64,000 nt of DNA from Amycolatopsis orientalis DSM 40040 = KCTC 9412 (GTDB lineage: Bacteria; Actinomycetota; Actinomycetes; Mycobacteriales; Pseudonocardiaceae): the NCBI RefSeq assembly GCF_000478275.1, contig NZ_ASJB01000057.1:124001-188000 (forward strand), given 5' to 3'. Under the pieces are notes generated by a model. It ran no database searches. It saw only the letters and a list, made by a program, of their open reading frames with translations, and was not told where the DNA came from. The translations under genes and the position numbers were made by a program. The stretch's first letter is position 1; each line of letters starts with the position of its first letter. Positions 8,118 to 25,313 of this stretch are shown in pieces.

Positions 8118-8286
8118 TCCACAGATGACTTTACGCGATCCGGGGCGTGGGCGACCGCTGAACGGCCCTGGACACCCTGGGCCGAAAGGCCCAGCAAGCC
8201 GGGGGTCCTCGTCCTCCAAACGCGGCCATGGCGTTCGCGACTTACCGGGTACAGAACCATTCCCTGCTCCTGGAGGTCGTCCCGCC

Positions 8287-8909: not shown

Positions 8910-9332
8910 TCAGGAAGCATCCGCGCCCTTCTTGGGGAAGGCGGAGCCGCGCACGAGGAACGCGAGCCGGATGACGGGCAGCATGCAGACGATCTGCATC
9001 ACGGCGTACCAAGGCGGGCAGACCCCCGGGATCACGTCGACGCCGATGATCGCGATCGGCATGATCACGGAGAGGGTGCGCACGCGGTCGAAGGCCTTTC
9101 GCGACCCCTGGGACGCGGAGACGGCGATGCGGTGGAGCAGCACGGCGACCACCGGCAGCAGGCCCGCCCGGACCCACATGAACGTGTTCACCGGGTGACC
9201 ACCGCTCGCCACCACGACGACCGTGATCAGGGCGACGACGCTGAGCGCGCCGTAGATCTTGACGCTGTTCTTCGCGGCGCCGAAGGCGGCTCGGGCACGG
9301 GGGTTGTCGAGAAGCGCGGTGTTGGTTTCCAT
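8910..9332 (-). CDS. Small polytopic membrane protein, unknown
   Basis: A 140-residue protein with four hydrophobic segments (about 28-44, 52-68, 88-104, 108-126) and a short basic C-terminus. The family was not recognised with confidence. The ATG at 9332 is chosen because the membrane-protein sequence begins there; longer in-frame starts add unlike, Pro/Arg/Thr-rich sequence. It is divergent from a histidine kinase gene, and no functional link can be shown. Confidence 0.65.
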   Translation of the reverse strand: METNTALLDNPRARAAFGAAKNSVKIYGALSVVALITVVVVASGGHPVNTFMWVRAGLLPVVAVLLHRIAVSASQGSRKAFDRVRTLSVIMPIAIIGVDVIPGVCPPWYAVMQIVCMLPVIRLAFLVRGSAFPKKGADAS

Positions 9333-9486
9333 GGTCGACGACGTTATGAAGCGCTCGGCCGCGCCGGAATCGGTCTGGGCACACGGCCGGGTGGGTCTAG
9401 CCCCACTCCTGGGCCGGACAGGGTGGGCGCGGGTTCCGCGTGGTGCACAGTGGGGAGCACCGAAGCGGAACGTGAAGGACGAAGCG

Positions 9487-10746
9487 ATGAGTCGACTGGG
9501 TGCGTGGCTGACGCGAGCCGGTGTGGGGTTCGTGCGGGCCTGTGCCGTGGCGGTGGTCGCGATGGTGATGCCCGCCGTGTGGGCGGCCTCCGTCGGGCTG
9601 GGGATCTGGTGGGGGCCGGGCAATCCGTGGTCGTGGCCGGCGCCGTTCGTGCTGGTGTGCGTGGCCACGCTCGTGCTGCCCCGCCCGGTCTGCCGGGCGG
9701 TCCGCTTCCTCGTCGCGAGGTGGACGGGCACGGTCATCCCCGGCGGTTACCGGCAGGCCGGGCCGGTGACGCGGCTGTCCACCGGGTACTGGTGGAACGG
9801 GTTCTCCTACGAACGCACCCGCCGGGACGCGCTGATGGACCAGAAATGGCGGGTCAGATGGCGTGACCCCGCCAACGGGCGCGATCTGCGATTCGCCGCG
9901 ATCGTCCCGTTCACCGCGGGTGTGGTCGCCTGCCTCCCGCCCGCCGGTGTGGCCGTGGCCGCCGTCGGATTCGTGCGGCCGGAGCCCACCGCGCGGCTCG
10001 TCGGTGTGCTCGGGCTGGTCGTGGCCGTGGTTTCCGCCCCGTACGCCTGGCGTTGCCTCGAGCCCGTCGCCGTCCGGTTCCTGCGGCCGTCGCCCGCGAT
10101 GGCGCTGGCGGGCCGGGTGAACGAGCTGACCGCCCAGCGCGCGGACACGACGATCGCGCAGGCCGCCGAAATCCGCCGGATAGAACGGGATCTGCACGAC
10201 GGCGCACAGGCCCGGCTGGTCGGACTGGGACTTTCCCTGGCGACCGCGGAGAAACTGATGGAGAGCGACCCCGAAGCGGCCAGGGCGCTGATGCGCGACG
10301 CGCGGGAAGGCGCCACCGCCTCGTTGACCGAGCTCCGTGAGCTGATCCAGGGGATCAGCCCGCCGGTGCTCACCGAACGAGGACTCGCCGACGCGGTGCG
10401 CGCTCTCGCGCTGGACCTCCCGCTCGACGTGACGGTCCACGCCGACGCCGGGTTGAAGCTGGACTCGCCGATCGAGTCGGCCGTCTACTTCGGTGTCGTC
10501 GAACTGCTGACCAACGCGGTCCGGCACGCCCAGGCGTCGCGGGCCCTGGTCAGCCTCGACCACGACGACGTCGGCCTCGTCGTCGAGGTCGAGGACGACG
10601 GCCGAGGCGGCGCCGTCGAGCGGGCCGGGGGCGGCATCGCCGGTCTGCGCCGCCGTCTCGCGGTCTTCGACGGCACCCTGGAGATCACCAGCCCGCCGGG
10701 CGGCCCGACCCGGGCCAGGATGATGGTGCCATGCGTGTCGTCGTAG
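9487..10746 (+). CDS. NarL-type sensor histidine kinase
   Basis: A 419-residue membrane kinase. Hydrophobic helices lie at about 18-40, 52-65, 138-160 and 168-186, with a cytoplasmic-looking loop between. HisKA_3 dimerisation helices follow, with the phospho-acceptor His237 in RRIERDLHDGAQARL, then a HATPase domain (N-box ELLTNAVRHA, G-box near GGGIAGLRRRL). Its stop overlaps the response-regulator start by 16 bp, so the pair is coupled. The signal is unknown; in actinomycetes such pairs often sit by transporters or respond to envelope stress. Confidence 0.88.
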   Translation: MSRLGAWLTRAGVGFVRACAVAVVAMVMPAVWAASVGLGIWWGPGNPWSWPAPFVLVCVATLVLPRPVCRAVRFLVARWTGTVIPGGYRQAGPVTRLSTGYWWNGFSYERTRRDALMDQKWRVRWRDPANGRDLRFAAIVPFTAGVVACLPPAGVAVAAVGFVRPEPTARLVGVLGLVVAVVSAPYAWRCLEPVAVRFLRPSPAMALAGRVNELTAQRADTTIAQAAEIRRIERDLHDGAQARLVGLGLSLATAEKLMESDPEAARALMRDAREGATASLTELRELIQGISPPVLTERGLADAVRALALDLPLDVTVHADAGLKLDSPIESAVYFGVVELLTNAVRHAQASRALVSLDHDDVGLVVEVEDDGRGGAVERAGGGIAGLRRRLAVFDGTLEITSPPGGPTRARMMVPCVSS

Positions 10747-11378
10747 CCGAAGACCTCTACCTCCTGCGGGACGGGATGGTCCGTCTGATCGAGGCGTTCG
10801 GGCATCAGGTGGTGGCGACGGCGGCCACCGGACCCGAGACGCTCGACGCGCTGCGGACCTGGCGCCCCGACGTGTCCGTCATCGACGTCCGCATGCCACC
10901 GAGCCAGTCGGACGAAGGACTCCGGGCAGCCCTCACCGCCCGGAGCGAGATGCCCGGGCTGCCCGTCCTCATCCTCTCCCAGCACGTCGAGCAGTTGTAC
11001 GCCCGCGAACTGCTGGCCGACGGCTCCGGCGGCGTCGGCTACCTCCTCAAGGAGAGCGTGTTCGACGCCGAGGGGTTCATCGGCGCGCTGGAGCGGGTCG
11101 CGGGCGGCGGGACGGCCATGGATCCGGCCGTCATCGCGAAACTGCTGTCCGGTGGTTCCCGGAACCGGGGGCTCGAGCGGCTCACCGAACGGGAGCATTC
11201 CGTGCTGGCCCTGATGGCCGAAGGACTGTCCAATCAGGCCATCGGCCGCCGTGTCTTCCTGAGCGAGAGCACCATCGGCAAGTACACGACGTCGTTGTTC
11301 GGCAAGCTCGGCATCACCGATGACGACGACACCAACCGCCGCGTCCGCGCCGTCCTCACCTATCTGAACAGGTCCTGA
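10731..11378 (+). CDS. NarL/FixJ-family response regulator
   Basis: A 215-residue regulator with an N-terminal receiver (phospho-acceptor Asp52 in VIDVRMPP, Lys near SGGVGYLLKES) and a C-terminal LuxR-type helix-turn-helix (about 150-210, LTEREHSVLALMAEGLSNQA). It is the partner of the kinase upstream, whose last 16 bp it overlaps. Its 3' end overlaps the 3' end of a second, convergent response-regulator gene by 19 bp (11360-11378). Confidence 0.9.
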   Translation: MRVVVAEDLYLLRDGMVRLIEAFGHQVVATAATGPETLDALRTWRPDVSVIDVRMPPSQSDEGLRAALTARSEMPGLPVLILSQHVEQLYARELLADGSGGVGYLLKESVFDAEGFIGALERVAGGGTAMDPAVIAKLLSGGSRNRGLERLTEREHSVLALMAEGLSNQAIGRRVFLSESTIGKYTTSLFGKLGITDDDDTNRRVRAVLTYLNRS

Positions 11379-12040
11379 TCGGCTCCGGGCGCGACCAGGC
11401 CGGCTTCGTAGGCGAAGACGACGAGCTGGGCCCGGTCGCGGGCGTGGAGTTTCGTCATGGCCCGGTTGACGTGGGTCTTCGCCGTCAGCGGGCTGATCAC
11501 CATCCGGGCGGCGATCTCGTCATTCGACAGGCCCTGGGCGACCAGGGTGACGGCCTCACGTTCGCGGTTGGTCAGTTCGGCGAGCCCCTGCCGCCCGGTA
11601 CCAGTGCCGGGCGGCAGGGTGAGGTACCGGTCGATCAGCTTGCGGGTGATCGACGGGGCCAGCAGCGCGTCGCCGCGGGCCGCGACCCGGACGGCGTGCA
11701 GGAAGTCCTCCGGCTCGATGTCCTTGACGAGGAATCCGGCGGCGCCCGCCCGCAGCGCCTTGAACACGTATTCGTCGAGACCGTAGTTGGTCAGGATGAC
11801 GACGTGCACCGAAGCCAGCGCCGGATCCGCGGCGATGCGGCGGGTCGCCTCGATCCCGTCGACCAGCGGCATCTGGACGTCGATGAGGGCGATGTCGGGA
11901 AGGTGTTCTCCGGCCAGCCGGACCCCTTCGGCGCCGTCCGTGGCTTCGGCCACGACCTCGATGCCGTCCTCGGCGTCGAGGAGCGCGCGGAATCCGCTGC
12001 GGATGAGCGGCTGGTCGTCGACCAGCAGGACCCGGATCAC
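11360..12040 (-). CDS. NarL/FixJ-family response regulator
   Basis: A 226-residue regulator. The receiver domain has Asp54 in ALIDVQMPLVDG and Lys in GFLVKDIEPED. The LuxR-type DNA-binding domain begins at LTNREREAVTLVAQGLSNDE. It is encoded downstream of its kinase with an ATGA overlap (12037-12040). It is not a close duplicate of the converging regulator (10731-11378); the linker and recognition helices differ. The target genes cannot be read from the sequence. Confidence 0.9.
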   Translation of the reverse strand: MIRVLLVDDQPLIRSGFRALLDAEDGIEVVAEATDGAEGVRLAGEHLPDIALIDVQMPLVDGIEATRRIAADPALASVHVVILTNYGLDEYVFKALRAGAAGFLVKDIEPEDFLHAVRVAARGDALLAPSITRKLIDRYLTLPPGTGTGRQGLAELTNREREAVTLVAQGLSNDEIAARMVISPLTAKTHVNRAMTKLHARDRAQLVVFAYEAGLVAPGADQDLFR

Positions 12041-13155
12041 GACGGCCTGGCCACGGGAAGTTCGGCCTCGACGGTGAAGCCGCCCTCGCCCCGGGGCGAG
12101 GCCCGGAGACGGCCGCCGAGCGCGGTGACCCGTTCGCGCATGCCGACCAGCCCGACGCCGGGCACCGGAACGCTGTCAGGACCGGCTTTCCCGTCGTCGT
12201 CGACCTGGATGACGAGCGCGTCCGGGCGATAGCCGATCCGGATCGAAGCCGAAGCGGCGGCGGCGTGCCGGGTGATGTTGGTCAGCGATTCCTGCACGAT
12301 CCGGTAGGCGGCCCGGTCCACCGCGGCCGGCAGGTCGGCTCGGCGTCCTTCGACCGTCAAGTGCGCGTCCAGTCCGGTCGTTCTGGCCTGCCGCACCAGT
12401 TCCGGGACGGAGTCGAGGCCCCGCGGCGGATGTTCGGCGTCGTCGCGCAGCGCCTCCAGGGTCGCGCGCAGTTCGCCCGCCGCCTCACGGCCCGCCTCCC
12501 GGATCGCGAGCAACGCCTCCGGTACCTCTTCACCGCGTTTGCGGGCCAGATGGACGGCGACCTCGGCCTGCACCTTGATGACGGAGATCTGGTGGGTGAG
12601 CGAATCGTGCAGTTCCCTGGCGATGTGCAGGCGTTCCTCGTCGGCCCGGCGCAGCGCGGCCTCTTCACGGGTGCGCTCGGCTTCGTCGGCCCGTCGCTCG
12701 GCCTGGCGCAGTGCTTCGCCCGCCGCGGCGGCGGCGATCAGCCAGGCCAGTTGCAGGACCTCGCGGCTGTGTGTGAAGGCCTCGCTCACGGAAAAGACGC
12801 GCGGGGAGGCCAGGATCGCGAACGGGAGCGCGAGCAGCATGACCACCGAACCGGCCAGCGTGGCGACGCGGTGCCCCGCCCGCATCGTCGCGTACACCGC
12901 GAACAGGTACGCGACGGCCGGGACGTCGAAACCCACCAGCTGACAGGCGAGCGCGGACAGTCCAGCCGCTGCGAGCACGAGGACCGGCGCCCGGCGGCTC
13001 GCGACCAGGGCCACGCCACCGAGCGCGAAGAAGGCATAGCCGAGCGGTTCGAGAGCTATGCCCGAGTGCTGCCGGGACAGCACGGTGACCACGAGGACCG
13101 CCAGAACCCCGGCGGCGATCGCCCAGTCCCTCGCATCGATCCGTGTCTTGCCCAT
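12037..13155 (-). CDS. Sensor histidine kinase (HisKA_3)
   Basis: A 372-residue kinase with about five membrane helices in the first 150 residues and no extracellular domain of note. A coiled linker (about 150-175) leads to the HisKA_3 motif with His183 in LHIARELHDSLTHQ, then the HATPase domain (ESLTNITRHA, GLVGMRERV). Such kinases with only membrane helices as the sensor usually sense membrane or cell-wall perturbation. It is the first gene of a two-gene operon with the response regulator. Confidence 0.88.
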   Translation of the reverse strand: MGKTRIDARDWAIAAGVLAVLVVTVLSRQHSGIALEPLGYAFFALGGVALVASRRAPVLVLAAAGLSALACQLVGFDVPAVAYLFAVYATMRAGHRVATLAGSVVMLLALPFAILASPRVFSVSEAFTHSREVLQLAWLIAAAAAGEALRQAERRADEAERTREEAALRRADEERLHIARELHDSLTHQISVIKVQAEVAVHLARKRGEEVPEALLAIREAGREAAGELRATLEALRDDAEHPPRGLDSVPELVRQARTTGLDAHLTVEGRRADLPAAVDRAAYRIVQESLTNITRHAAAASASIRIGYRPDALVIQVDDDGKAGPDSVPVPGVGLVGMRERVTALGGRLRASPRGEGGFTVEAELPVARPS

Positions 13156-13699: not shown

Positions 13700-13760
13700 G
13701 CACAAAGGACACACCGCGACCGCGAGCGTGCCGGGTGCGGTGTGAGGAGTCCTCAGGGCC

Positions 13761-13796
13761 GGGACCGTAGGCCCCCTCAGGCGGGACTTCGGTCTC
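13761..13796 (+). promoter_or_regulatory. Paired DevR/DosR-like boxes before the stress-protein/phosphoketolase operon
   Basis: GGGACCGTAGGCCC (13761-13774) and GGGACTTCGGTCTC (13783-13796) are 22 bp apart, two helical turns. Both fit the GGGAC-N4-GGCCC core bound by DevR/DosR in mycobacteria and OsdR in Streptomyces. They lie about 60-90 bp before the small reading frame at 13853 and 150-180 bp before the first stress-protein gene. Confidence 0.65.
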
Positions 13797-13852
13797 TGCT
13801 CCCGGGTCCCGCGCTGGTCGAAGCTGGGAAGTGACCAGACGGGAGAGTGAAG

Positions 13853-13960
13853 ATGGAGATCCTCGTAGTGGCGGTGAGCCGCCACGGCGGGACCTGGGAC
13901 GTCACCGCTTCGACGCACGCCGGTGTCCGGGAGGGGAGTGGCCATGCCGGGCGCGAGTGA
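13853..13960 (+). CDS. Possible 35-residue leader peptide overlapping the stress-protein start
   Basis: An ATG at 13853 with GGGAGAG 6-9 nt upstream opens 35 codons (start MEILVVAVSRHGGTWDV) that end at 13960, 17 nt inside the stress-protein gene, in another frame. It is the first reading frame after the DevR-like boxes. It could couple translation or be a remnant of an older gene start. There is no family match, and it may not be translated. Confidence 0.35.
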   Translation: MEILVVAVSRHGGTWDVTASTHAGVREGSGHAGRE

Positions 13961-14891
13961 GGGCACGGTCGTGGCCGGGATCGACGGTTCGGGTTCGGCC
14001 GGGCGGGCAGCGGTCTGGGCCGCGGGCGAAGCCGCGCGGCGGGGCCTGACGTTGCGGCTGGTCCACGTGTACTCGGTACCGCCGGTACGGGCGCCCGCCG
14101 TGCTGCCGTCCGCGGAAGCGATCAGGTCGGGATTCGAAGAACGCGGCACGGACTGGCTCGCGGAGGCCCGCGACGCCGTCGCCCGCCGCTATCCGGACCT
14201 CGCCGTCGAAACCGCGGTGCGGGAGGGAAGCCCGGTGGCCGCGTTGATCCACGAATCGCGGTCGGCCACGATGATCGTCCTCGGCTCCCGGGGGCTCGGG
14301 GGTTTCACCGGCCTCATGGTGGGTTCGACCGCGGTGGCCCTCGCCCAGCACGGCCACTGCCCGATCGTCGTCGCCCGGGGGAAGAAGCCGGACGACGCCC
14401 CGCCGGAGACCGGTCCGGTCGTCGTCGGCACCGATGGTTCGGCCTGGAGCGACGCGGCACTGGCCTGCGCCTTCGACGAAGCGGCGTCGCGCGGTACGGA
14501 CTTGATCGTCGTCCGCGTGTGGAACGAGATCGTCGACCACGGCGCCTTCCGGGCACATCCACTGGCGGTGGATCCGGCCGAGATCGAGACGGCGGAGCGC
14601 AAGGCGGCCGAGGAACAACTCGCGCCGTGGCGGGACCGGTTCCCCGCGCTTCCTGTGGAGACCGTGGTCGTCCGCGACCGGCCGGTGCGCGCGTTGCTCG
14701 GTTTCGGTGCGCGGGCCCAGCTGCTCGTCGTCGGTTCCCGTGGCCGGGGCGGTTTCGAAGGCATGGTGCTCGGATCGACGAGCCAGGCGCTGGTGGCGCA
14801 CTCCGAATGTCCGGTGATGGTCGTCCGTCCGGCCGAGGCCGCCACGGGGGTAGCCGAAGCGAAAGCGACTTACCGGGAGGAAGAGCGATGA
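13944..14891 (+). CDS. Tandem universal stress protein
   Basis: A 315-residue protein of two UspA domains. Each ends with an intact ATP-binding signature, GSRGLGGFTGLMVGST in the first and [18 protein letters not shown] in the second. This layout matches the mycobacterial dormancy protein Rv2623, an ATP-binding growth regulator. The ATG at 13944 has GGAGGGG upstream. It is the first large gene of an operon with a second tandem stress protein (ATGA overlap) and phosphoketolase, behind paired DevR-like boxes. Confidence 0.88.
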   Translation: MPGASEGTVVAGIDGSGSAGRAAVWAAGEAARRGLTLRLVHVYSVPPVRAPAVLPSAEAIRSGFEERGTDWLAEARDAVARRYPDLAVETAVREGSPVAALIHESRSATMIVLGSRGLGGFTGLMVGSTAVALAQHGHCPIVVARGKKPDDAPPETGPVVVGTDGSAWSDAALACAFDEAASRGTDLIVVRVWNEIVDHGAFRAHPLAVDPAEIETAERKAAEEQLAPWRDRFPALPVETVVVRDRPVRALLGFGARAQLLVVGSRGRGGFEGMVLGSTSQALVAHSECPVMVVRPAEAATGVAEAKATYREEER

Positions 14892-15787
14892 ACACGGCTG
14901 AGCGGAAGATCCTCGTCGGGGTGGACGGGACCGGACCGGGGCTGGCGGCCGTCCGCTGGGCCGCGGCCGTCGCCGCGCGCCGACGGCTGAAACTGCTGAT
15001 CGTGCACGCGCTGCGCGCCGACCAGCCGGCGTACGGCGCGGGCCTGGCGGGACCGGTGCCCTGGTACGGAGACCTGGCCGAGGAAGGCAGGCGCGTCCTG
15101 GACGAAGCGACCGAGCAGGCGCGCGCAGTCTCCCCGGAGACCGTGGTGGACACGATCATGCCCACGGACTCGCCCGCGCCGTATCTGATCGACGCGTCGA
15201 AGTCGGCCGCGCTGGTGGTCGTCGGCGGCACCGGACGAGGCTTCTTCAACGAGCTGACGCTCGGATCGACGGCGTCGGCGGTGGTCGCGCACGCCCACTG
15301 TCCCGTGGTGGTCATGCGGGGCAAGGAGAACACGACCGCCTATCCGGCCGAAGGTCCGGTGGTGGTCGGCATCGACGGCAGCCCGCTGAGCGAACGCGCC
15401 CTCGAGGTCGCCTTCGAAGAGGCTTCCTGGCGGAACGCGCGGTTGGTCGCGGTCCACGCGTGGCGCGACGTCACCTACGACGACGCCTATGGGATGGCGA
15501 GGCTGGTCGTGCAGTGGGAGTCGATCGAGGAGGAAGAGCGCCGCCTGCTAGCGCAGCGGCTCGCGGGCTGGCAGGAGAAGTACCCGGACGTCGAGGTGGA
15601 GCGGGTGCTCGTCCGTGACCAGCCGAGGCACATCCTGCTGGAGTGGAGTGCCAAGGCCCAGCTGGTGGTCGTCGGCAGCCGCGGCCGCGGTGGGTTCACC
15701 GGGCAGCTGCTCGGTTCGACCAGCCAGGCGCTCGCGCATCACGCGGAGTGCCCGGTGATGGTGGTCCGGCCGGAGAAGTCGCGGTGA
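14888..15787 (+). CDS. Tandem universal stress protein
   Basis: A 299-residue protein of two UspA domains. The first carries the less regular signature [18 protein letters not shown], the second the standard [18 protein letters not shown], so both may bind ATP. The start overlaps the previous stop (ATGA, 14888-14891), and the stop overlaps the phosphoketolase GTG start (GTGA). Tight coupling of all three genes implies joint expression under oxygen or energy limitation. Confidence 0.88.
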
Positions 15788-18171
15788 CCGTGATCGGGGC
15801 ACCGGCCGCGCCCGAGACGCTGACTCCGGGCGAACTGTCGCAAGTGGACGCTCAGTGGCGGGCGGCGAACTACCTCGCCGCCTGCCAGATCTATTTGATG
15901 GACAACCCGTTGCTGGAGTCGCCGCTGAAGCCCGAGCACGTGAAGCCACGGCTGCTGGGCCATTGGGGCACCTCCCCGGGGTTGAACTTCCTGTACGCCC
16001 ACCTCAACCGGGCCATCGTGCGGCGGGACCTGAACGCCCTCTTCGTCACCGGGCCCGGGCACGGCGGTCCCGCCCTCTACGCGAACACCTGGCTCGAAGG
16101 CAGCTATTCGGAGGCATGGCCGGAAGTGCCGTACGACAAGGACGGGCTGCGTACGCTGTGCCGGCAGTTCTCCTTCCCCGGCGGGGTACCCAGTCATGTC
16201 GCGCCGCAGGTCCCGGGATCGATCCATGAAGGCGGCGAACTCGGTTATTCCCTCGCGCACGCCTTCGGGGCCGCGTTCGACAACCCGCACCTCGTCGTCG
16301 CCTGCGTCGTCGGCGACGGTGAGGCCGAAACCGGGCCGCTGGCCACGAGCTGGCATTCGGGCAAGTTCCTCAACCCGGTCCGCGACGGCGCGGTGCTGCC
16401 GATCCTGCACCTGAACGGCTACAAGATCGCGAACCCCACCGTGCTTTCGCGGATCAGCGGCACCGAGCTCGATGAACTGTTGCGTGGCTACGGGTATTCG
16501 CCCAGGTACGTCGAGGGCGACGACCCGGTCGCGATGCATCACGCCATGGCCGACGCGCTGGACGGCGTACTCGACGAGATCGACGGCATCCAGGTGCGGG
16601 CGCGTGCCGCGGGCAGGGTCACCGGGTCTCCGCGGTGGCCGATGATCGTCCTGCGCAGTCCCAAGGGCTGGACCGGTCCATCCTTTGTGGACGGTGTCCA
16701 GGTCGAAGGGACGTGGCGATCGCATCAGGTCCCGATCCCGGACGCGCGGAGCAATCCGGAGCATCTGCGTCAGCTGGAGGACTGGCTCCGGTCTTACCGT
16801 CCGGAGCTGCTCTTCGACGAGGAGGGACGGCCGACCGCCGAGGTCACCGCGCTGATCCCGCACGGCGACCGGCGGATGGGTTCGTCACCCCACGCCAACG
16901 GCGGGCTCGTGATACGGCCACTGGCGCTGCCGGACGTCGCGGCACACGCGATCGGCCTCGTCCGGCCGGGCGGCGCGGTCGCGGAACCGACCAGGGTGCT
17001 CGGGCGATGGCTGCGGGAGGTGTTCTCACAGAACGCGAAGGCAGGGAACTTCCGCCTGTTCGGCCCGGACGAGACGGCGTCGAACCGGCTCGAAGCCGTT
17101 TTCGACGTGACGGGCAAGACCTGGTTGTGCGAGACCGAACCCGTCGACGAACACCTCGCCGCGGACGGACGGGTCATGGAGGTGCTTTCGGAACACCTCT
17201 GCCAGGGCTGGCTCGAAGGTTACCTGCTGTCGGGCAGGCATGGGCTCTTCTCGTGCTACGAGGCCTTCGTGCACATCGTCGACTCGATGGTCAACCAGCA
17301 CGTGAAATGGCTCAAGGTGCACCGCGAGATCCCGTGGCGGCGGCCCGTCGCCTCGCTGACGTATCTGCTGACCTCCCATGTCTGGCGGCAGGACCACAAC
17401 GGGTTCTCCCATCAGGACCCCGGATTCGTCGACCACGTCGCGAACAAGAGTCCCGAAGTCGTCCGCGTGTACTTCCCGCCCGACGCGAACACCCTGCTGT
17501 GGGTCACGGACCACTGCCTCCGTGGCCGGGACTACGTCAACGTGATCGTCGCGGGGAAGAACGACAGCCCGGTCTGGCTCGACAGCGAACAGGCCGCGGT
17601 GCACTGCGCCCGGGGCGCGGGGATCTGGGACTGGGCGAGCACCCATCCGGACCGGGAACCCGACGTCGTCCTCGCGTGCGCGGGCGACGCCCCGACGGTC
17701 GAGGTGCTCGCCGCCGTCCGGTTGCTGCGCGATCTCCTGCCGGAGCTGGCGGTACGGGTGGTGAACGTCGTCGACCTGATGCGCCTGCAGCCCGCCGCGG
17801 AGCATCCGCACGGGATGACCGACCGCGAGTTCGACGCGCTGTTCACCACCGACAAGCCGGTCATCTTCGCCTACCACGGTTATCCCTGGCTGATCCACCG
17901 CCTGGCGTACCGGCGCGCGAACCACGACGGCATGCACGTACGCGGCTACATCGAACACGGCACCACGACCACACCGTTCGACATGCTGGTGCGCAACAGC
18001 ATGGACCGCTTCCAGCTGGTCATCGACGTCATCGACCGGGTGCCGGGCCTGCTCGCCGGTGCCGGCGCCGTCCGGCAGCGGATGACCGACGCGCGGGAAC
18101 GGCACCGCGGGTGGATCGTCGAGCACGGCGAGGATCTGCCGGAGATCCGTGACTGGGCATGGGAGTCGTGA
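15784..18171 (+). CDS. xfp: Phosphoketolase (xylulose-5-P/fructose-6-P)
   Basis: A 795-residue thiamine-diphosphate enzyme of full family length. Family marks are [19 protein letters not shown] near the N-terminus, [13 protein letters not shown], the TPP/Mg motif [19 protein letters not shown], and SHQDPGF with a conserved His in the C-terminal half. It cleaves xylulose-5-phosphate or fructose-6-phosphate with phosphate to acetyl phosphate plus a shorter aldose phosphate in the cytoplasm. The GTG start at 15784 overlaps the stress-protein stop. Placement under DevR-like boxes suggests a role in ATP supply through acetyl phosphate when respiration is limited; this last point is inference. Confidence 0.9.
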
Positions 18172-18190
18172 CATCACCGATGTGAACGGA

Positions 18191-18234
18191 CAGCAGGAAG
18201 GCCACCGGCGAGTTCGCCGGTGGCCTTCCTGCTG
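18191..18234. terminator. Bidirectional hairpin terminator
   Basis: A perfect inverted repeat with 20-bp arms (CAGCAGGAAGGCCACCGGCG) and a 4-nt AGTT loop. It lies between the converging 3' ends of the phosphoketolase gene and a universal stress protein gene. There is no T tract, as is usual in high-GC actinomycetes. Confidence 0.85.
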
Positions 18235-18252
18235 GTGGTGCGAGAAGAATAT

Positions 18253-18729
18253 TCAAGAGGCCGTGGGGCTGAACCGATGCGTCGCGTGGGGTGTCACCAC
18301 GACGACGGGGCAGGTGGCGTGGCGGACACAGGCCGTCGCGACACTGCCGAAGACGACGCGCTCCAGCCCGTTCCTGTGGCGGGAGCCCAGCACCAGCAGA
18401 TCCGCCGCTTGTGCGGCGGCGAGCAGTTCGGAGACGGGATTCCCTTGCCGCAGCGAGGTTTTCACGCGCACGTCGGAATGGAGTTCCGCCTGGATCCGCG
18501 CGACGGCCTCGTCGAGGGAGTAGTCCGTCCGCACCGGGACGCGGCCGTGCGGCTGAAGGGCGAACGACGTGCCGGGAAGGAGCTCCTCTCGCGGCAGTAC
18601 CAAGAGGACCTCGACGAAATCACCGACGGCGGCGGCTTCGGTGAGGGCCCATCGGATCGCTTCGTCACCGTCGGCCGAACCGTCGGCACCGACGAGGATC
18701 CTGCGGGCGTTGACCGGATTCTGGTTCAT
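18253..18729 (-). CDS. Universal stress protein, single domain
   Basis: A 158-residue single UspA domain (ILVGADGSADGDEAIRWAL start; GNPVSELLAAAQAADLLVLG near the end). Its nucleotide signature GSRHRNGLERVVFGSVATA lacks the second Gly of the usual G-2x-G, so ATP binding is less certain than in its neighbours. The ATG at 18729 is preferred for its AAAGGA upstream. It is the last gene of a minus-strand operon after the CBS-BON gene and a tandem stress protein. Confidence 0.85.
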   Translation of the reverse strand: MNQNPVNARRILVGADGSADGDEAIRWALTEAAAVGDFVEVLLVLPREELLPGTSFALQPHGRVPVRTDYSLDEAVARIQAELHSDVRVKTSLRQGNPVSELLAAAQAADLLVLGSRHRNGLERVVFGSVATACVRHATCPVVVVTPHATHRFSPTAS

Positions 18730-18764
18730 GGTTCTTTTCCTTTGCGCGAATGATTCGAGAGGTG

Positions 18765-19430
18765 TCAAAGCCCGAGTGCGGCGGGCCGGAGGCGGTCGTC
18801 GTCCCAGACGAAGTCGAGCCGGTTCCGCACCTCGACCACTCCGGAGACCTCGTTCGCGAGGGCACCCGCGCGATCGACGGCGCCGTGGTTGTCGAGCCTG
18901 CCGAGAAGGGTCACAACGCCGTCCTCGACGGTGACGGACGCTTGGCCCGGCGTCACCCGGAGTGTGCCGGCGAGGACGTCGTGCTCGATCTCCTCCCGGA
19001 TCTCCTCGTCGGATCGGCGGAAGGTGGCCAACAGGTCACGACGGGAGACCACCCCGGTGAGCTTTCCGTCCTCGACGACGAACAGCCGCCGGACGCCCTT
19101 CTTGCCGAGCCGGGTCGCCGCGGTCCCGACCGATTCTCCCGCGTCGATCGTGACGACCGGCGTTGTCATCAGGTCTTCGGCGAGGAGCGCGTTCGCCTTG
19201 CGCAGCTCGTCCCTGGTGTGGTGGCCGGCGAGCCGGGCGGGCCGTGGCCGCCGGAGGCGGGCCAGGAGGTCGGCCTCGGAGACCACCCCGATCGGCGCTC
19301 CCGCGTCGTCGACGACCGGAACGGCGCTGATCCGGTGCCGTGCCAGTACGGTGGCGATCCGTTTGTAGCCGGTGTCCGGCGCGACGGCGACCGGAGCACT
19401 CGTCATGACTTCGGAAACCTTGGTGCACAT
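18765..19430 (-). CDS. CBS-CBS-BON domain protein
   Basis: A 221-residue protein: two CBS motifs (about 8-60 and 84-140; VSEVMTSAPVAVAPDTGYK, AEDLMTTPVVTIDAGES), then a BON domain (about 148-212; VTVEDGVVTLLGRLDN). CBS pairs bind adenosine ligands and BON domains are often membrane- or lipid-associated. CBS proteins such as Hrp1 (Rv2626c) are strong DosR-regulon members in mycobacteria. GAAGGA precedes the ATG at 19430. It is the middle gene of the stress-protein operon. Confidence 0.85.
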   Translation of the reverse strand: MCTKVSEVMTSAPVAVAPDTGYKRIATVLARHRISAVPVVDDAGAPIGVVSEADLLARLRRPRPARLAGHHTRDELRKANALLAEDLMTTPVVTIDAGESVGTAATRLGKKGVRRLFVVEDGKLTGVVSRRDLLATFRRSDEEIREEIEHDVLAGTLRVTPGQASVTVEDGVVTLLGRLDNHGAVDRAGALANEVSGVVEVRNRLDFVWDDDRLRPAALGL

Positions 19431-19444
19431 GATCGTTCCTTCGT

Positions 19445-20338
19445 TCAGGATCCCCCGGTGCGGGCGATCAGTACCGGACAGGCCGCGCGGTGGACGAGGG
19501 TTTGCCCGGTCGAACCGAGGAGCAGGCCGCGAAACCCGCCCCGGCCCCGGTTTCCGACGACGATCAGCTGCGCTTTCACGCTCCAGCGCAACAGTTCCTG
19601 CCGGGGCTCCTCCTGGACGACCACTTGGCGCACGGTGACCTCGGGATGGGCGCCGGCGAACTTCGCCACTTGTTCGGCGACCATGCGCCGAGCGGACTCG
19701 GTGAAGGCACTCCAGCCGTAGTTGCCCGCCGAATCCCCGAAGGACCGCGAAGCCGAGACGTCTTCCCAAGCGTGGACGGCGATCAGTTCCGCGTCCCGGG
19801 CGGAGGCTTCGGTGAACGCCGCCACGAGGGCCGTTTCGGCGGCGGCGCTCCCGTCGATGCCGACCACCACCGGACGCTTTCGCGCGCCGGGCAGATCCCA
19901 GGTCTTTCCCCGCACCGAGACGACGGGGCAGCGCGCGTGCCCGGCGAGCGCGGTCGTGACGGATCCACCGAACAGCGCGGTGAACCGGCTGTGCTCGGTG
20001 GTGCCCAGGACGACCAGCCTGGCGCCGCCGGACGCTTCGATCAGCGCGGAGGCGGCCGGCTCGTCGGCGAGACGGGTGTCGACGGCGGGATCGTCAAGGC
20101 GCGCGGTCATCTCCCGCAGAATCGTTTCGCCGCGGACCCGCACCTTGTGCAGGAGTTCGTCGGTCGGCGGAACGGCTCCCAGGTAGTAGTCGGGAAGCCC
20201 CAGCGCGTGCACGAGCGTGAGGGAGGTGCCGTACCGATCGGCGGCCTGCAGGCCCCAGGTCACGGCCGCGGGGGATCCGGTGGATCCGTCGACGCCGACG
20301 ACGATCGGCCCGGCCGTCGGTGGGGTTCGGTTCGTCAT
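19445..20338 (-). CDS. Tandem universal stress protein
   Basis: A 297-residue protein of two UspA domains. The first domain's nucleotide signature is degenerate (GTTEHSRFTALFGGSVTT), while the second is intact (GNRGRGGFRGLLLGSTGQ). It may therefore bind one nucleotide per chain. It is the first gene of a three-gene minus-strand operon, with DevR-like boxes 64-99 bp upstream. That region is shared with the divergent lycopene-cyclase-like gene. Confidence 0.87.
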   Translation of the reverse strand: MTNRTPPTAGPIVVGVDGSTGSPAAVTWGLQAADRYGTSLTLVHALGLPDYYLGAVPPTDELLHKVRVRGETILREMTARLDDPAVDTRLADEPAASALIEASGGARLVVLGTTEHSRFTALFGGSVTTALAGHARCPVVSVRGKTWDLPGARKRPVVVGIDGSAAAETALVAAFTEASARDAELIAVHAWEDVSASRSFGDSAGNYGWSAFTESARRMVAEQVAKFAGAHPEVTVRQVVVQEEPRQELLRWSVKAQLIVVGNRGRGGFRGLLLGSTGQTLVHRAACPVLIARTGGS

Positions 20339-20401
20339 CGGCTATTCCCGCTCCTCCCTGCGTCTGTGGCCAACGCTAAGCGGACGGACTTCCCGTCACC
20401 G

Positions 20402-20437
20402 GTGCCGTTGGTCCCGGATGCCCAGGACCTCGGACGC
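20402..20437. promoter_or_regulatory. DevR/DosR-like boxes in the divergent stress-protein/cyclase promoter region
   Basis: On the minus strand 20402-20415 reads GGGACCAACGGCAC. On the plus strand 20424-20437 reads AGGACCTCGGACGC. Both are weaker matches to the GGGAC-N4-GGCCC core than those at 13761 and 24202. Position between two divergent genes of the island supports control of both. Confidence 0.5.
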
Positions 20438-20484
20438 GTCTCTGGTCACTGGCGCGCGTGCGGGCGGGGAGGTGCACTCGAAGG

Positions 20485-21609
20485 ATGACGATCCTCATCG
20501 CGGGCGGCGGACTCAGCGGTCTCAGTCTCACGGCGCATCTGGCGGCGAGACCGGAACCGCTGGGGCCGATCGTCGTCGTCGACGATGGTCGCCGTCCGCT
20601 CGCGACGGCGGGGTGGGCGTCATGGTCGGCGGAGCCGGGGCTGTTCGGCGAGGCCGTGTCGCGTACCTTCGACCGGTTCCATGTCCACGCGGAGGGGCAC
20701 GACCGCCGCGTCGATCTCGGCCGCTACCGCTACCGGTACATCCGTGGCGACGATTTCGCCGCCGCCGTCACGAGGATCGCGGCGAGACGGCCGGATATCC
20801 GTTTCCTCACCGGGCGGGTCACCGCGATCAGGCAGGCGGGCTCCGGCGCGGAAGCCATTGTGGACGGTCGGGTTCATCACGCGGACTGGGTGTTCGACAG
20901 CGTGCTCGGTCCCGCGCGGCCCAAGGCCGCCGCCTGGTTGATCTTCCGCGGCTGGCACGTCCGCACCCCGGAACCCGCGTTCGACCCGGCGGTGCCCACG
21001 TTCTTCGACTTCCGTACCCCGCAGCGACGCGGCGCGAGCTTCGTCTACGTGCTCCCGAGAGGCCCCCAGGAAGCCTTGGTCGAACACACCACCTTCGCCC
21101 CGCCGGAGTCCCGAGGGATCGCTCGTCCCCAGGAACAGCGAGCCGCGTTGCGCGAGTATTCGTCCGCGATCCTCAAGGTGCGGAACGGCGTGGTGGCGCG
21201 GGAGGAATCCGCGTCGATCCCGCTCTCCGCCGCCGCCGTGGATCGCAGACGCGGCTCGATTCTCGCCATCGGGACCAAGGCGGGCATGGTGAAGGCGTCC
21301 ACCGGTTACGCCTTCGCGCGGATACAGGCCGACAGCGTCGCGATCGCGGAATCCCTGGCGACCCACGGGCATCCGTTCGATCTGCCCGAACCGAAGGCGC
21401 GGCACCGCCTGTTCGACGCCGCCCTCCTGGACATGATCACCCGGCATCCGGCTCAGCTGGAACGGGTGTTCTCGGCACTTTTCGACCGGGTGTCCGCCGA
21501 ACCGGTGCTCCGTTTCCTGGACGAGGAGACTTCGTTCACGCAGGAGGCCAAGCTGTTCGCTGCCCTGCCGCCGTCGCTGTACACGGCCCTCGCCAGGAGG
21601 CACCGGTGA
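20485..21609 (+). CDS. Lycopene-cyclase-family flavoprotein
   Basis: A 374-residue FAD protein with an N-terminal dinucleotide fold (ILIAGGGLSGLSLTAHL). Marks of the CrtL/CrtY lycopene cyclase family include FFDFRTPQ, FVYVLPRGPQEALVEHT and KAGMVKASTGYAFARIQ. The family cyclises lycopene ends to beta-ionone rings, using FAD non-redox, at the membrane. No phytoene synthase or desaturase is nearby, so the role here is open; a different polyene or quinone substrate is possible. The ATG at 20485 is chosen at the start of the fold; a GTG at 20458 is an alternative. Confidence 0.75.
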   Translation: MTILIAGGGLSGLSLTAHLAARPEPLGPIVVVDDGRRPLATAGWASWSAEPGLFGEAVSRTFDRFHVHAEGHDRRVDLGRYRYRYIRGDDFAAAVTRIAARRPDIRFLTGRVTAIRQAGSGAEAIVDGRVHHADWVFDSVLGPARPKAAAWLIFRGWHVRTPEPAFDPAVPTFFDFRTPQRRGASFVYVLPRGPQEALVEHTTFAPPESRGIARPQEQRAALREYSSAILKVRNGVVAREESASIPLSAAAVDRRRGSILAIGTKAGMVKASTGYAFARIQADSVAIAESLATHGHPFDLPEPKARHRLFDAALLDMITRHPAQLERVFSALFDRVSAEPVLRFLDEETSFTQEAKLFAALPPSLYTALARRHR

Positions 21610-21693
21610 AGTTTCCGTGCCCGGCCGATCACTCCACGCCTTGGCAGGAGTGGTGAACTAGTGGAACGCTGGAGCGGTCTGTGGCGACCGTAG

Positions 21694-23448
<1,755 letters not shown>

Positions 23449-23451
23449 CGG

Positions 23452-24114
23452 CTACCGATCGCCGAACGGCGGGGGAGAGGTGTCGCGTCTGAGCTGGGTC
23501 GCGAGGACCGCGGCCTGGGTACGGCGTTGGATGTTGAGCTTGGCGAGGATGCGGGAGACGTAGTTCTTCACGGTTTTCTCGGCGAGGAACATGCGTTCGC
23601 CGATTTCGCGGTTGGTGAGGCCTTCGCCGATGAGGTCGAAGACGGTGCGCTCTTGTTCGGAGAGCGCGGCGGTGGGGTCGTTGTGGTCGCGTTCGCGGCG
23701 GATGCGGTTCATCAGTGCGGCGGTGGTGCGGCTGTCGAGCAGGGAGCCACCTGCCGCGATGGTGCGGATGGCGGAGACGAGGTCGTTTCCGAGGACCTGT
23801 TTGAGGACGAAACCGGACGCACCGGCCATGATGGCGGTGAAGAGGGCTTCGTCGTCGGCGTAGGACGTGAGCATCAGACAGCGCAGGTCTTTTTCGGTGG
23901 ACAGCAGTTCGCGGCAGAGTTCGATGCCGGTCCCGTCGGGGAGGCGCACGTCGAGGACGGCGATGTCCGCGTCGCTTTTGGGGATGCGCGCGAGGGCTTC
24001 GGACACGGACGCGGCCTCGCCGGCGATGTCGATGTCGGGTTCGTTGCCGAGCAGGTCGGCCAGTCCTCGCCGGACGATTTCGTGATCGTCGACGAGGAAC
24101 ACCTTGGTCGCCAT
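23452..24114 (-). CDS. devR: DevR/DosR-like response regulator
   Basis: A 220-residue NarL/FixJ regulator. The receiver has Asp55 ([20 protein letters not shown]) and the conserved Lys of GFVLKQ. The LuxR-type domain includes [20 protein letters not shown] and [17 protein letters not shown], nearly the mycobacterial DevR recognition helix, so similar DNA boxes are expected and are present. AGGAGGAAC before the ATG at 24114 is a strong ribosome site. It faces the DevS-like kinase gene convergently instead of forming a devRS operon. It is divergent from the Acg-type gene, and two DevR boxes lie between, so autoregulation is likely. Confidence 0.87.
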
Positions 24115-24201
24115 CTTGTTCCTCCTGCGGGGTCCTGGCTGCCCGACCGACGGTACCTGGGCGATGCGGTGGATACAGCCACCTGGACGTCCCAACGAGA
24201 A

Positions 24202-24245
24202 GGGACCTTGGGCCCTAGCCGTGCCCTCCCCGGGTATTTGGTCCC
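24202..24245. promoter_or_regulatory. Paired DevR/DosR-like boxes between devR and the nitroreductase
   Basis: GGGACCTTGGGCCC (24202-24215, plus strand) is an almost ideal DevR/DosR box. GGGACCAAATACCC is read on the minus strand at 24232-24245. They lie between the divergent devR-like and Acg-type genes and may activate both. Confidence 0.7.
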
Positions 24246-24332
24246 GCGGATCGGTGCCGTCGGTACCTGCTCCCTCCCCGCGGGACCGGCGCACCGTGGA
24301 GAAGGTCGAACGAGCGGTGAGGAGGGGATCCC

Positions 24333-25313
24333 ATGGCGACCGGGTGGACGAGGGCGGAGACCGAGGTGCTGGCGAGGGCGTTGGTGCGGGCCCCTTCGGT
24401 GCACAACATCCAGCCGTGGCGGCTGGAGTTCGACGGGGAGCGGCTCCTGTTGCGAGAGCGCCGCGACCTGGAACTGCCGCACCACGACCCGCGGGGCCGG
24501 GACAGGCTCATCTCGTGCGGCGCCGCTCTCACCAACCTTGAACTCGCGGTGCGGGTACTCGGCCACCGGATCCGTACCGAAACCCTCCCCGACGCCGGCC
24601 GCTCGGACGTCATCGCCACGATCGAGACCACCGGCCCGCTGCCGCCGACCGACGTCGAACTGCACCGGTACTCGGCGATCGCGCGGCGCGGCAGCTACCG
24701 CCGTCCCTTCTCCGGACGACCGGTCTCACGGCAGGAGATCGGGGATCTGATCGCCGCCGCGGCCCGGAAGGGGGTCGAGGCCCGGCCGGTTCAGGACGAG
24801 CTGGAGCTGTCGCAGATCGCGGACCTGCTCGAGTTCGCGGCCGAGGCATACCAGCACGATCGCGCGTACCAGCGTGAACTGGCGATGTGGACCATCCGCG
24901 ACGAAGGGCTCCGGCGCCACGGTGCCGGGCTCGCCGAGAGCACGATCCCGGCCGGGTCGCTGCCGTGGGCGGGGCTGGTCCGGGCGGCCACCGCCGTACC
25001 CGACCGGCGGGTGCTCCAGCGGCGGCTCGCCGGCGAGACCTTGCTCGTCTTCTTGACCATCGACGACAGCGCGCACGATCACCTCCACGCGGGGCGGGCG
25101 CTGCAGGACACCTGGCTCGACGCGGTCGACGACGGCCTGGCCGGTTCCGTGCTGACGCAGCCGCTGCATCTGCCGGAGGTGCGTTCCGCGCTGTGCGACG
25201 ACCTCGAACTACCCGGTTTCCCGCAGGCGCTCATGCGTTTCGGTTACCCCTCGGGTCTGATCCCGCCCAGTCCTCGCCGCGCCATCGACGAGATCCTCGG
25301 GACCGGGTTCTGA
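24333..25313 (+). CDS. Acg-type FMN-binding nitroreductase-like protein
   Basis: A 326-residue protein of the Acg family (mycobacterial Rv2032), related to flavin nitroreductases. Typical are [13 protein letters not shown] near the N-terminus, [15 protein letters not shown] in the middle and [20 protein letters not shown] at the end. Acg binds FMN but in mycobacteria seems to sequester it rather than reduce nitro compounds. GAGGAGGGG precedes the ATG. Strong DevR-like boxes lie about 90-130 bp upstream. Confidence 0.85.

Follow-up and report, generated by a model that had tools for sequence, protein, structure and literature searches.

The genes devR and devS of Mycobacterium tuberculosis form one operon. 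In the available part of PMC3029386, the Dev boxes of the mycobacterial regulator DevR (DosR) are described as closely packed and cooperatively bound, and the available part of PMC5069765 describes universal stress protein (USP) genes grouped round the regulator of the Streptomyces coelicolor OsdR/OsdK system. The present analysis concerns a 64-kb stretch of a 9.06-Mb Amycolatopsis genome (G000:C56:124001-188000 in the genome and contig labelling used here), hereafter the window, in which ten genes at 13.76-25.31 kb form an island. This island looks like an oxygen-controlled survival cluster of known type, with a carotenoid-cyclase-like enzyme as an unexpected built-in member. With good confidence, it is probably an accessory DevR/OsdR-type hypoxia regulon core, comprising DevR-type boxes, DosT-like sensing and the cyclase as a member of the regulon.

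The island shares with the mycobacterial DevR/DosR-DevS/DosT system the architecture of regulator and kinase, the recognition helix, the residues of the heme pocket, targets of the USP and Acg types, and the close packing of box pairs described for Dev boxes. It differs in that devS and devR are convergent, hence not on one transcript, with devS placed behind the cyclase gene, and in that the island includes a phosphoketolase, the cyclase and a CBS-BON protein and the genome a further DevRS pair. As far as the accessible portion of PMC5069765 goes, the predicted OsdR sites (for example AGGGACCTTCGGCCCC; some tested by gel shift, Table 1 of that report) are little different from the window site at 24201, AGGGACCTTGGGCCCT; a matrix of the OsdR sites works on the island, and the grouping of USP genes round the regulator is shared. 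The ten genes are without the nitrate-reductase genes of that system and include the cyclase and phosphoketolase instead.

An earlier sequence-only reading of the window had proposed a DevR/DosR-type hypoxia island. The regulator, the kinase, the gene content and the boxes with their conservation all fit this proposal, under which an oxygen response would be expected. The second DevRS pair, the convergence of devS and devR, and the recurrence of the cyclase in such islands of other genera are additions to it.

Island layout and the regulator-kinase pair

All ten genes named in that reading (four USPs, CBS-BON, Acg-type, DevS-like and DevR-like proteins, phosphoketolase and cyclase) are present, with domain or profile matches (Table 1). 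Three control regions are readable from the sequence, namely the region upstream of usp1, 20339-20484 and 24115-24332. The second is divergent, with usp4, the CBS-BON gene and usp3 running leftward from it and the cyclase gene and devS, separated by 114 bp, running rightward; from the third, devR runs leftward and acg rightward, and devS and devR meet tail to tail. Because the usp2 ATG overlaps the usp1 stop and the xfp GTG overlaps the usp2 stop, usp1-usp2-xfp look translationally coupled, and the layout suggests shared transcripts of the island genes. A 35-codon open reading frame on the plus strand (13853-13960; MEILVVAVSRHGG...), behind a purine-rich stretch, reaches into the usp1 start and is a possible leader peptide.

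Table 1. Genes and DevR-type boxes of the island, in window positions
Feature	Position	Strand	Remarks
Two DevR-type boxes, upstream of usp1-usp2-xfp	13761-13774 and 13783-13796	+	Starts 22 bp apart
usp1, USP with two Usp domains	13944..14891	+	PF00582 1.5e-52
usp2, USP with two Usp domains	14888..15787	+	PF00582; ATG overlapping usp1 stop (ATGA)
xfp, phosphoketolase	15784..18171	+	PF09364/PF03894/PF09363; NF003619 1409 bits; GTG overlapping usp2 stop
usp3, single-domain USP	18253..18729	-	PF00582 2.2e-27
CBS-CBS-BON protein	18765..19430	-	PF00571, PF04972
usp4, two-domain USP, heading the leftward run usp4-cbsbon-usp3	19445..20338	-	PF00582 4.6e-47
DevR-type box and weak second site, usp4/cyclase divergent region	20402..20437 (20402-20415 and 20424-20437)		Near-invariant in six Amycolatopsis promoters, window included
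Lycopene-cyclase-family FAD enzyme	20485..21609	+	PF05834 1.7e-48
devS, DevS/DosT-like kinase (GAF-GAF-HisKA_3-HATPase)	21724..23448	+	TTG start; ATG at 21727
devR, NarL-type DevR-like response regulator	23452..24114	-	Convergent with devS
Two DevR-type boxes, between devR and acg	24202-24215 and 24232-24245		Starts 30 bp apart
acg, Acg/Rv3131-family flavin mononucleotide-binding oxidoreductase	24333..25313	+	NF047509 1.9e-73, 247.7 bits (cut-off 199)

The regulator consists of a NarL-type receiver and a LuxR/GerE domain, retains the receiver Asp (VLDVRL) and Lys (GFVLK), and has M. tuberculosis DevR as its best solved relative (3c3w, 9.8e-85). Its recognition helix had been described as close to that of DevR, and the segment KTVKNYVSR is indeed identical to the M. 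tuberculosis protein. The GAF-A domain of the kinase matches DosT (2vzw, 5.7e-63) and also DevS. The accessible text of PMC4082495 gives His149 (His147 of DosT) as the proximal heme ligand, Tyr171 (Tyr169) as the distal residue, and seven positions at which DosS and DosT differ. The window kinase has the equivalents of this His and Tyr in FPANHPPM and GNLYMTEK, and is DosT-like at 87, 90, 97, 108, 118 and 169, six of the seven positions, with Leu at 89; the positions were numbered by eye.

Three DevS homologues beyond 1e-100 are encoded in the same genome, and a second DevRS locus, on contig C22, holds a kinase 49-50% identical and a DevR 64% identical to those of the window, along with two Acg homologues; DevR-like boxes were also seen there, at 8126/8157 of L066 (G000:C22:20000-39900). 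Over slightly different alignment lengths, the C22 DevR reaches 309.9 bits against M. tuberculosis DevR (3c3w) and the window DevR 286.4 bits. Orthologues of the window kinase (at least 69% identity) are found in 14 of 60 genomes, its own included, while some DevS homologue at 1e-100 occurs in 45 of the 60, many near 50% identity. Because the DevR of the second pair scores higher and orthologues of the window kinase occur in 14 of the 60 genomes only, the island is probably an accessory DevRS set.

The higher score of the C22 DevR, and the commonness of kinases of about 50% identity, like that of C22 and possibly its orthologues, also favour another explanation, in which the boxes are real but the C22 DevRS mainly governs the island, the window kinase and regulator having diverged to another signal (redox, nitric oxide or the quinone pool) or acting only as modulators. 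The retention of the heme residues by the window kinase argues against this, as do two features of the promoter between devR and acg: no box in the 64 kb scores better than the one it carries, and its second box persists in all 13 promoters aligned. Control by C22 is regarded as unlikely on this evidence, and an accessory regulon under its own DevRS pair is preferred.

DevR-type boxes and their conservation

The box pairs that the sequence-only reading had placed in all three control regions, at 13761/13783, 20402/20424 and 24202/24232, were recovered at exactly these coordinates. They precede the regulator and stress genes of the island, and the control regions match the OsdR matrix, those of the cyclase and usp1 more weakly than that of devR/acg. 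Within the window, the exact form GGGACNNNNGGCCC is confined to 13761 and 24202. Compared with the stringent DosR consensus GGGACTTNNGNCCCT given in the available part of PMC6448022, the boxes at 13783 and 24202 each carry a single mismatch; the box at 20424 is weak in the window (AGGACCTCGGACGC) and better in relatives. Single boxes in the window are no commoner than chance, either for the GGGACNNNNGGCCC type with at most one mismatch (13 vs 22.5 expected) or for the GGGACTTNNGTCCC type with at most two (6 vs 9.8 expected), and these counts, being below chance, were dropped as evidence. The non-random feature of the boxes is their position, not their number.

When all positions of the window were scored with a matrix built from the published OsdR site table, in which the sites are mostly predicted (PMC5069765, part available), the devR/acg site at 24201 ranked first (14.1 vs 11.6 for the next best; shuffle p 0.005), the cyclase site at 20401 ranked 19th (p 0.025) and the usp1 site at 13760 ranked 24th (p 0.088). 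With this matrix, the usp1 box is short of significance. A matrix made from the devR/acg promoters of relatives only placed the usp1 boxes at ranks 3 and 6 (p 0.003) and the cyclase boxes at ranks 12 and 27 (p 0.037). A two-box pattern, drawn up after the boxes had been seen, gave two matches in the whole genome, one of them being 24202/24232, and its control pattern gave none.

Conservation was followed in all three promoters. The devR/acg alignment, which comprised the fetched islands with both genes, the window included (L054, L056, L057 and L059, each with one gene missing, were excluded), retains the second box in 13 of 13 promoters and the first in 11. The cyclase box is kept in six Amycolatopsis promoters including the window, with two bases differing in L016; identity is 96% in the box vs 66% in the flanks, the former value being raised by the anchoring of the rows on the box. 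The seventh, more distant Amycolatopsis cyclase promoter (G041) gave no good box match. In four of five usp1 relatives, the alignment has box-like sites close to the start, and the fifth (L049) has a pair further upstream, at 12233/12255, with the same 22-bp spacing and the same second box, GGGACTTCGGTCTCT.

Some results, in this section and in the cyclase survey below, weigh against the reading of the island as a regulon core of its own DevR. The C22 DevRS could act on the island boxes, and with the Streptomyces matrix the usp1 box does not reach significance by itself. The stringent DosR consensus gave 56 sites in 60 Amycolatopsis genomes vs 39 for a reversed control (both summed by hand), a modest excess, and a looser pattern in the genome of the window gave 7 matches, below the 12 of its control. 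In favour of the reading, eighteen of the 56 stringent sites lie at most 30 kb from a DevS homologue, where even placement predicts 0.65. This comparison covers the stringent sites only, the control sites being given as counts, and its Poisson p is too small because clustered sites are not independent. When eight box loci of the own genome were viewed, island-gene homologues within 1.5 kb were seen only at the island and at a USP locus on C63.

On C63, near 253002 (L126), a match with 69% identity to usp1 is preceded, at a distance of about 660 bp, by a DevR-like box, GGGACTTTCGGTCCT. In other Amycolatopsis, the exact mycobacterial-type DosR consensus stands near USP/CBS-type genes at L056 (G021:C170), L111, L115 and L119, with four exact sites in 18 kb at L056.

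The cyclase within and beyond Amycolatopsis

The island cyclase resembles CrtY, the lycopene cyclase of Streptomyces dependent on flavin adenine dinucleotide (FAD), in the PF05834 domain (166.1 bits vs a gathering score of 23.4), in core motifs and in an identity of 34-38%. It stays below the NCBIfam lycopene-cyclase cut-offs (TIGR01789, 40.8 vs 215.2 bits; TIGR01790, 82.1 vs 209.5 bits). The differences lie in its separate clade, from which the Streptomyces-type cyclases stand apart with support of 96/95 and 99/99 (midpoint-rooted tree, with a long-branch warning), in the absence of crt genes around it, in its residence in stress islands, and in its frequent position behind DevR-like boxes; three annotated regions of relatives (two of Streptomyces, one of Kitasatospora) are crt clusters. 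Full-length relatives of at least 58% identity are present in 7 of 60 Amycolatopsis genomes, its own included, and a contig scan with two strict peptide patterns recovered only six relatives. More distant, stand-alone relatives were seen in Pengzhenrongella frigida (L065) and in Chloroflexales (L064), with no USP or crt match in the stretch examined, and G031:C1 carries, near 8.2706-8.2712 Mb (L011, L012), a second, partial copy in two pieces of 62-63% identity beside the island copy.

The AlphaFold model of the cyclase, of good quality (predicted local distance difference test score 87.8), has 3-hydroxybenzoate 6-hydroxylase as its first Foldseek rank; a profile of the cyclase gave no PDB relative by sequence, and no solved lycopene cyclase is among the fold matches listed. 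The nearest solved folds include a geranylgeranyl-reductase-like protein and squalene epoxidase, tied with many FAD hydroxylases, halogenases and reductases, so that the fold gives no substrate. The genome of the window has two crtI-crtB clusters, of which that on C52 combines a polyprenyl synthase gene with crtI, crtB, genes for two proteins with lycopene-cyclase domains (CrtYc/CrtYd type) and another desaturase-like gene (crt labels assigned from domain matches). Since C52 has CrtYc/CrtYd-type proteins of its own, the island cyclase is an extra one. The cyclase is not everywhere remote from carotenoid genes, the distance to a crt cluster being about 18 kb in G046 and about 65 kb in G018.

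It is quite possible, if short of probable, that the enzyme is something other than a carotenoid cyclase, namely a different isoprenoid enzyme that depends on FAD and is required at low oxygen, for example a prenyl reductase with menaquinone or lipid chains as substrates. The motifs DFRTPQ, YVLP and ALVE-T-F, common to the island cyclase and the lycopene cyclases of Streptomyces crt clusters, argue against this, as does the presence of crtI in 24 of 24 cyclase-bearing genomes checked, though crtI is also found in 281 of 294 genomes of the family; 6 of the 24 have no CrtYc/CrtYd match. The island cyclase probably acts on an isoprenoid, with lycopene or a related carotenoid as the first guess.

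The cyclase subfamily occurs in 20 of 297 genomes of the family and in 6 of 46 genera. In a survey of 17 loci outside Amycolatopsis (five genera, about 20 kb each, two shorter), homologues of USP, CBS-BON, Acg, DevRS or phosphoketolase genes lie within about 10 kb of the cyclase in 15, the exceptions being L162 and L160, the latter truncated at a contig end. DevS homologues are present in three of the 17 and crt genes in none. Of 18 test stretches (these 17 loci and L018), 15 had USP homologues, vs 1 of 10 controls; the controls all came from Amycolatopsis, had been retrieved for other purposes and were without matching by genus.

A box scoring at least 11 lies 67-98 bp before the match start in 9 of the 17 loci, with p < 0.05 for each locus. 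To the contrary results mentioned above belong the make-up of these nine, which are eight of the ten loci of genus g8 and the single g41 locus, so that one genus supplies eight of nine, and the lack of a clear box in the other eight (two each in g8, g44, g22 and g21), where the two g44 loci, box-like by eye, score 8.0 (p 0.12-0.13). A clear cyclase box is present in three of the six genera, namely Amycolatopsis, g8 and g41, and one row per genus gives a Fisher combined p of 0.005, with the rows chosen by hand and the window value taken from the OsdR-only matrix, the others from a joint matrix. In eight g8 promoters (L162, which has no anchor, and L152, which was not entered, being left out), the box is 92% identical and the flanks 50%, the box-anchored rows inflating the inside value.

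The rarity of the cyclase, the four g21 and g22 loci with no clear box, and the two g44 loci and two of ten g8 loci below the threshold would suit an explanation in which the cyclase stands beside the island by chance or is under unrelated control, the regulon consisting of the USP, Acg and DevRS genes only. This is distinctly unlikely in view of the island-type genes at 15 of the 17 loci, the excess of USP homologues over the controls and the clear box in three genera, within the limits given for the last two. From its recurring surroundings and promoters, the FAD cyclase probably does belong to the regulon. Eight loci outside Amycolatopsis (for example L151, upstream of 9382) encode, divergently from the cyclase, a small protein that looks hydrophobic by eye, and in L161 the box lies between the starts of the two genes.

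Proposed circuit and its meaning

In the circuit proposed here, heme is probably bound by the first GAF domain of the DosT-like kinase, and oxygen would hold the kinase off. As oxygen falls, the kinase would phosphorylate DevR, which may then bind the box pairs of the GGGAC-N4-GKCCC type and activate the three control regions, that is usp1-usp2-xfp, usp4-cbsbon-usp3 with cyclase-devS, and devR with acg. Since devR and devS both stand behind boxes, such a circuit should be self-reinforcing. Phosphoketolase makes acetyl phosphate. That its product in the island helps to phosphorylate DevR is speculation; in the available parts of the respective reports, acetyl phosphate was used for in vitro phosphorylation of DevR (PMC3029386) and OsdR (PMC5069765).

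A FADred-type cyclase may be suited to low oxygen. At low oxygen, carotenoid desaturation would slow and reduced FAD would be plentiful, and the cyclase might remodel the remaining acyclic carotenoids or another membrane isoprenoid. CrtI assays have been described also with a quinone acceptor replacing oxygen, which lowers the standing of this part of the proposal. The full proposal, a FAD-dependent, reductively activated isoprenoid (probably carotenoid) cyclase that serves as a DevR-regulon enzyme in several Pseudonocardiaceae genera, co-transcribed with an oxygen sensor kinase and remodelling membrane isoprenoids at low oxygen, is accordingly put forward as tentative and rather doubtful.

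In text searches of the open-licence literature, no report was found of this island, of the cyclase as a DevR-regulon member, or of a link between hypoxic dormancy and carotenoid or isoprenoid remodelling. With the island, the low-oxygen system of DevR and OsdR would reach into Amycolatopsis and its kin among the genera, which are related to producers of antibiotics; the layout has two regulators and offers a new target open to testing. Should the role of the cyclase be confirmed, actinobacterial hypoxic dormancy would include remodelling of membrane isoprenoids.

Directly beside the island, at 9259-13155, two further two-component systems stand back to back (kinase-regulator on the plus strand, regulator-kinase on the minus strand), followed by a DUF6223 gene.

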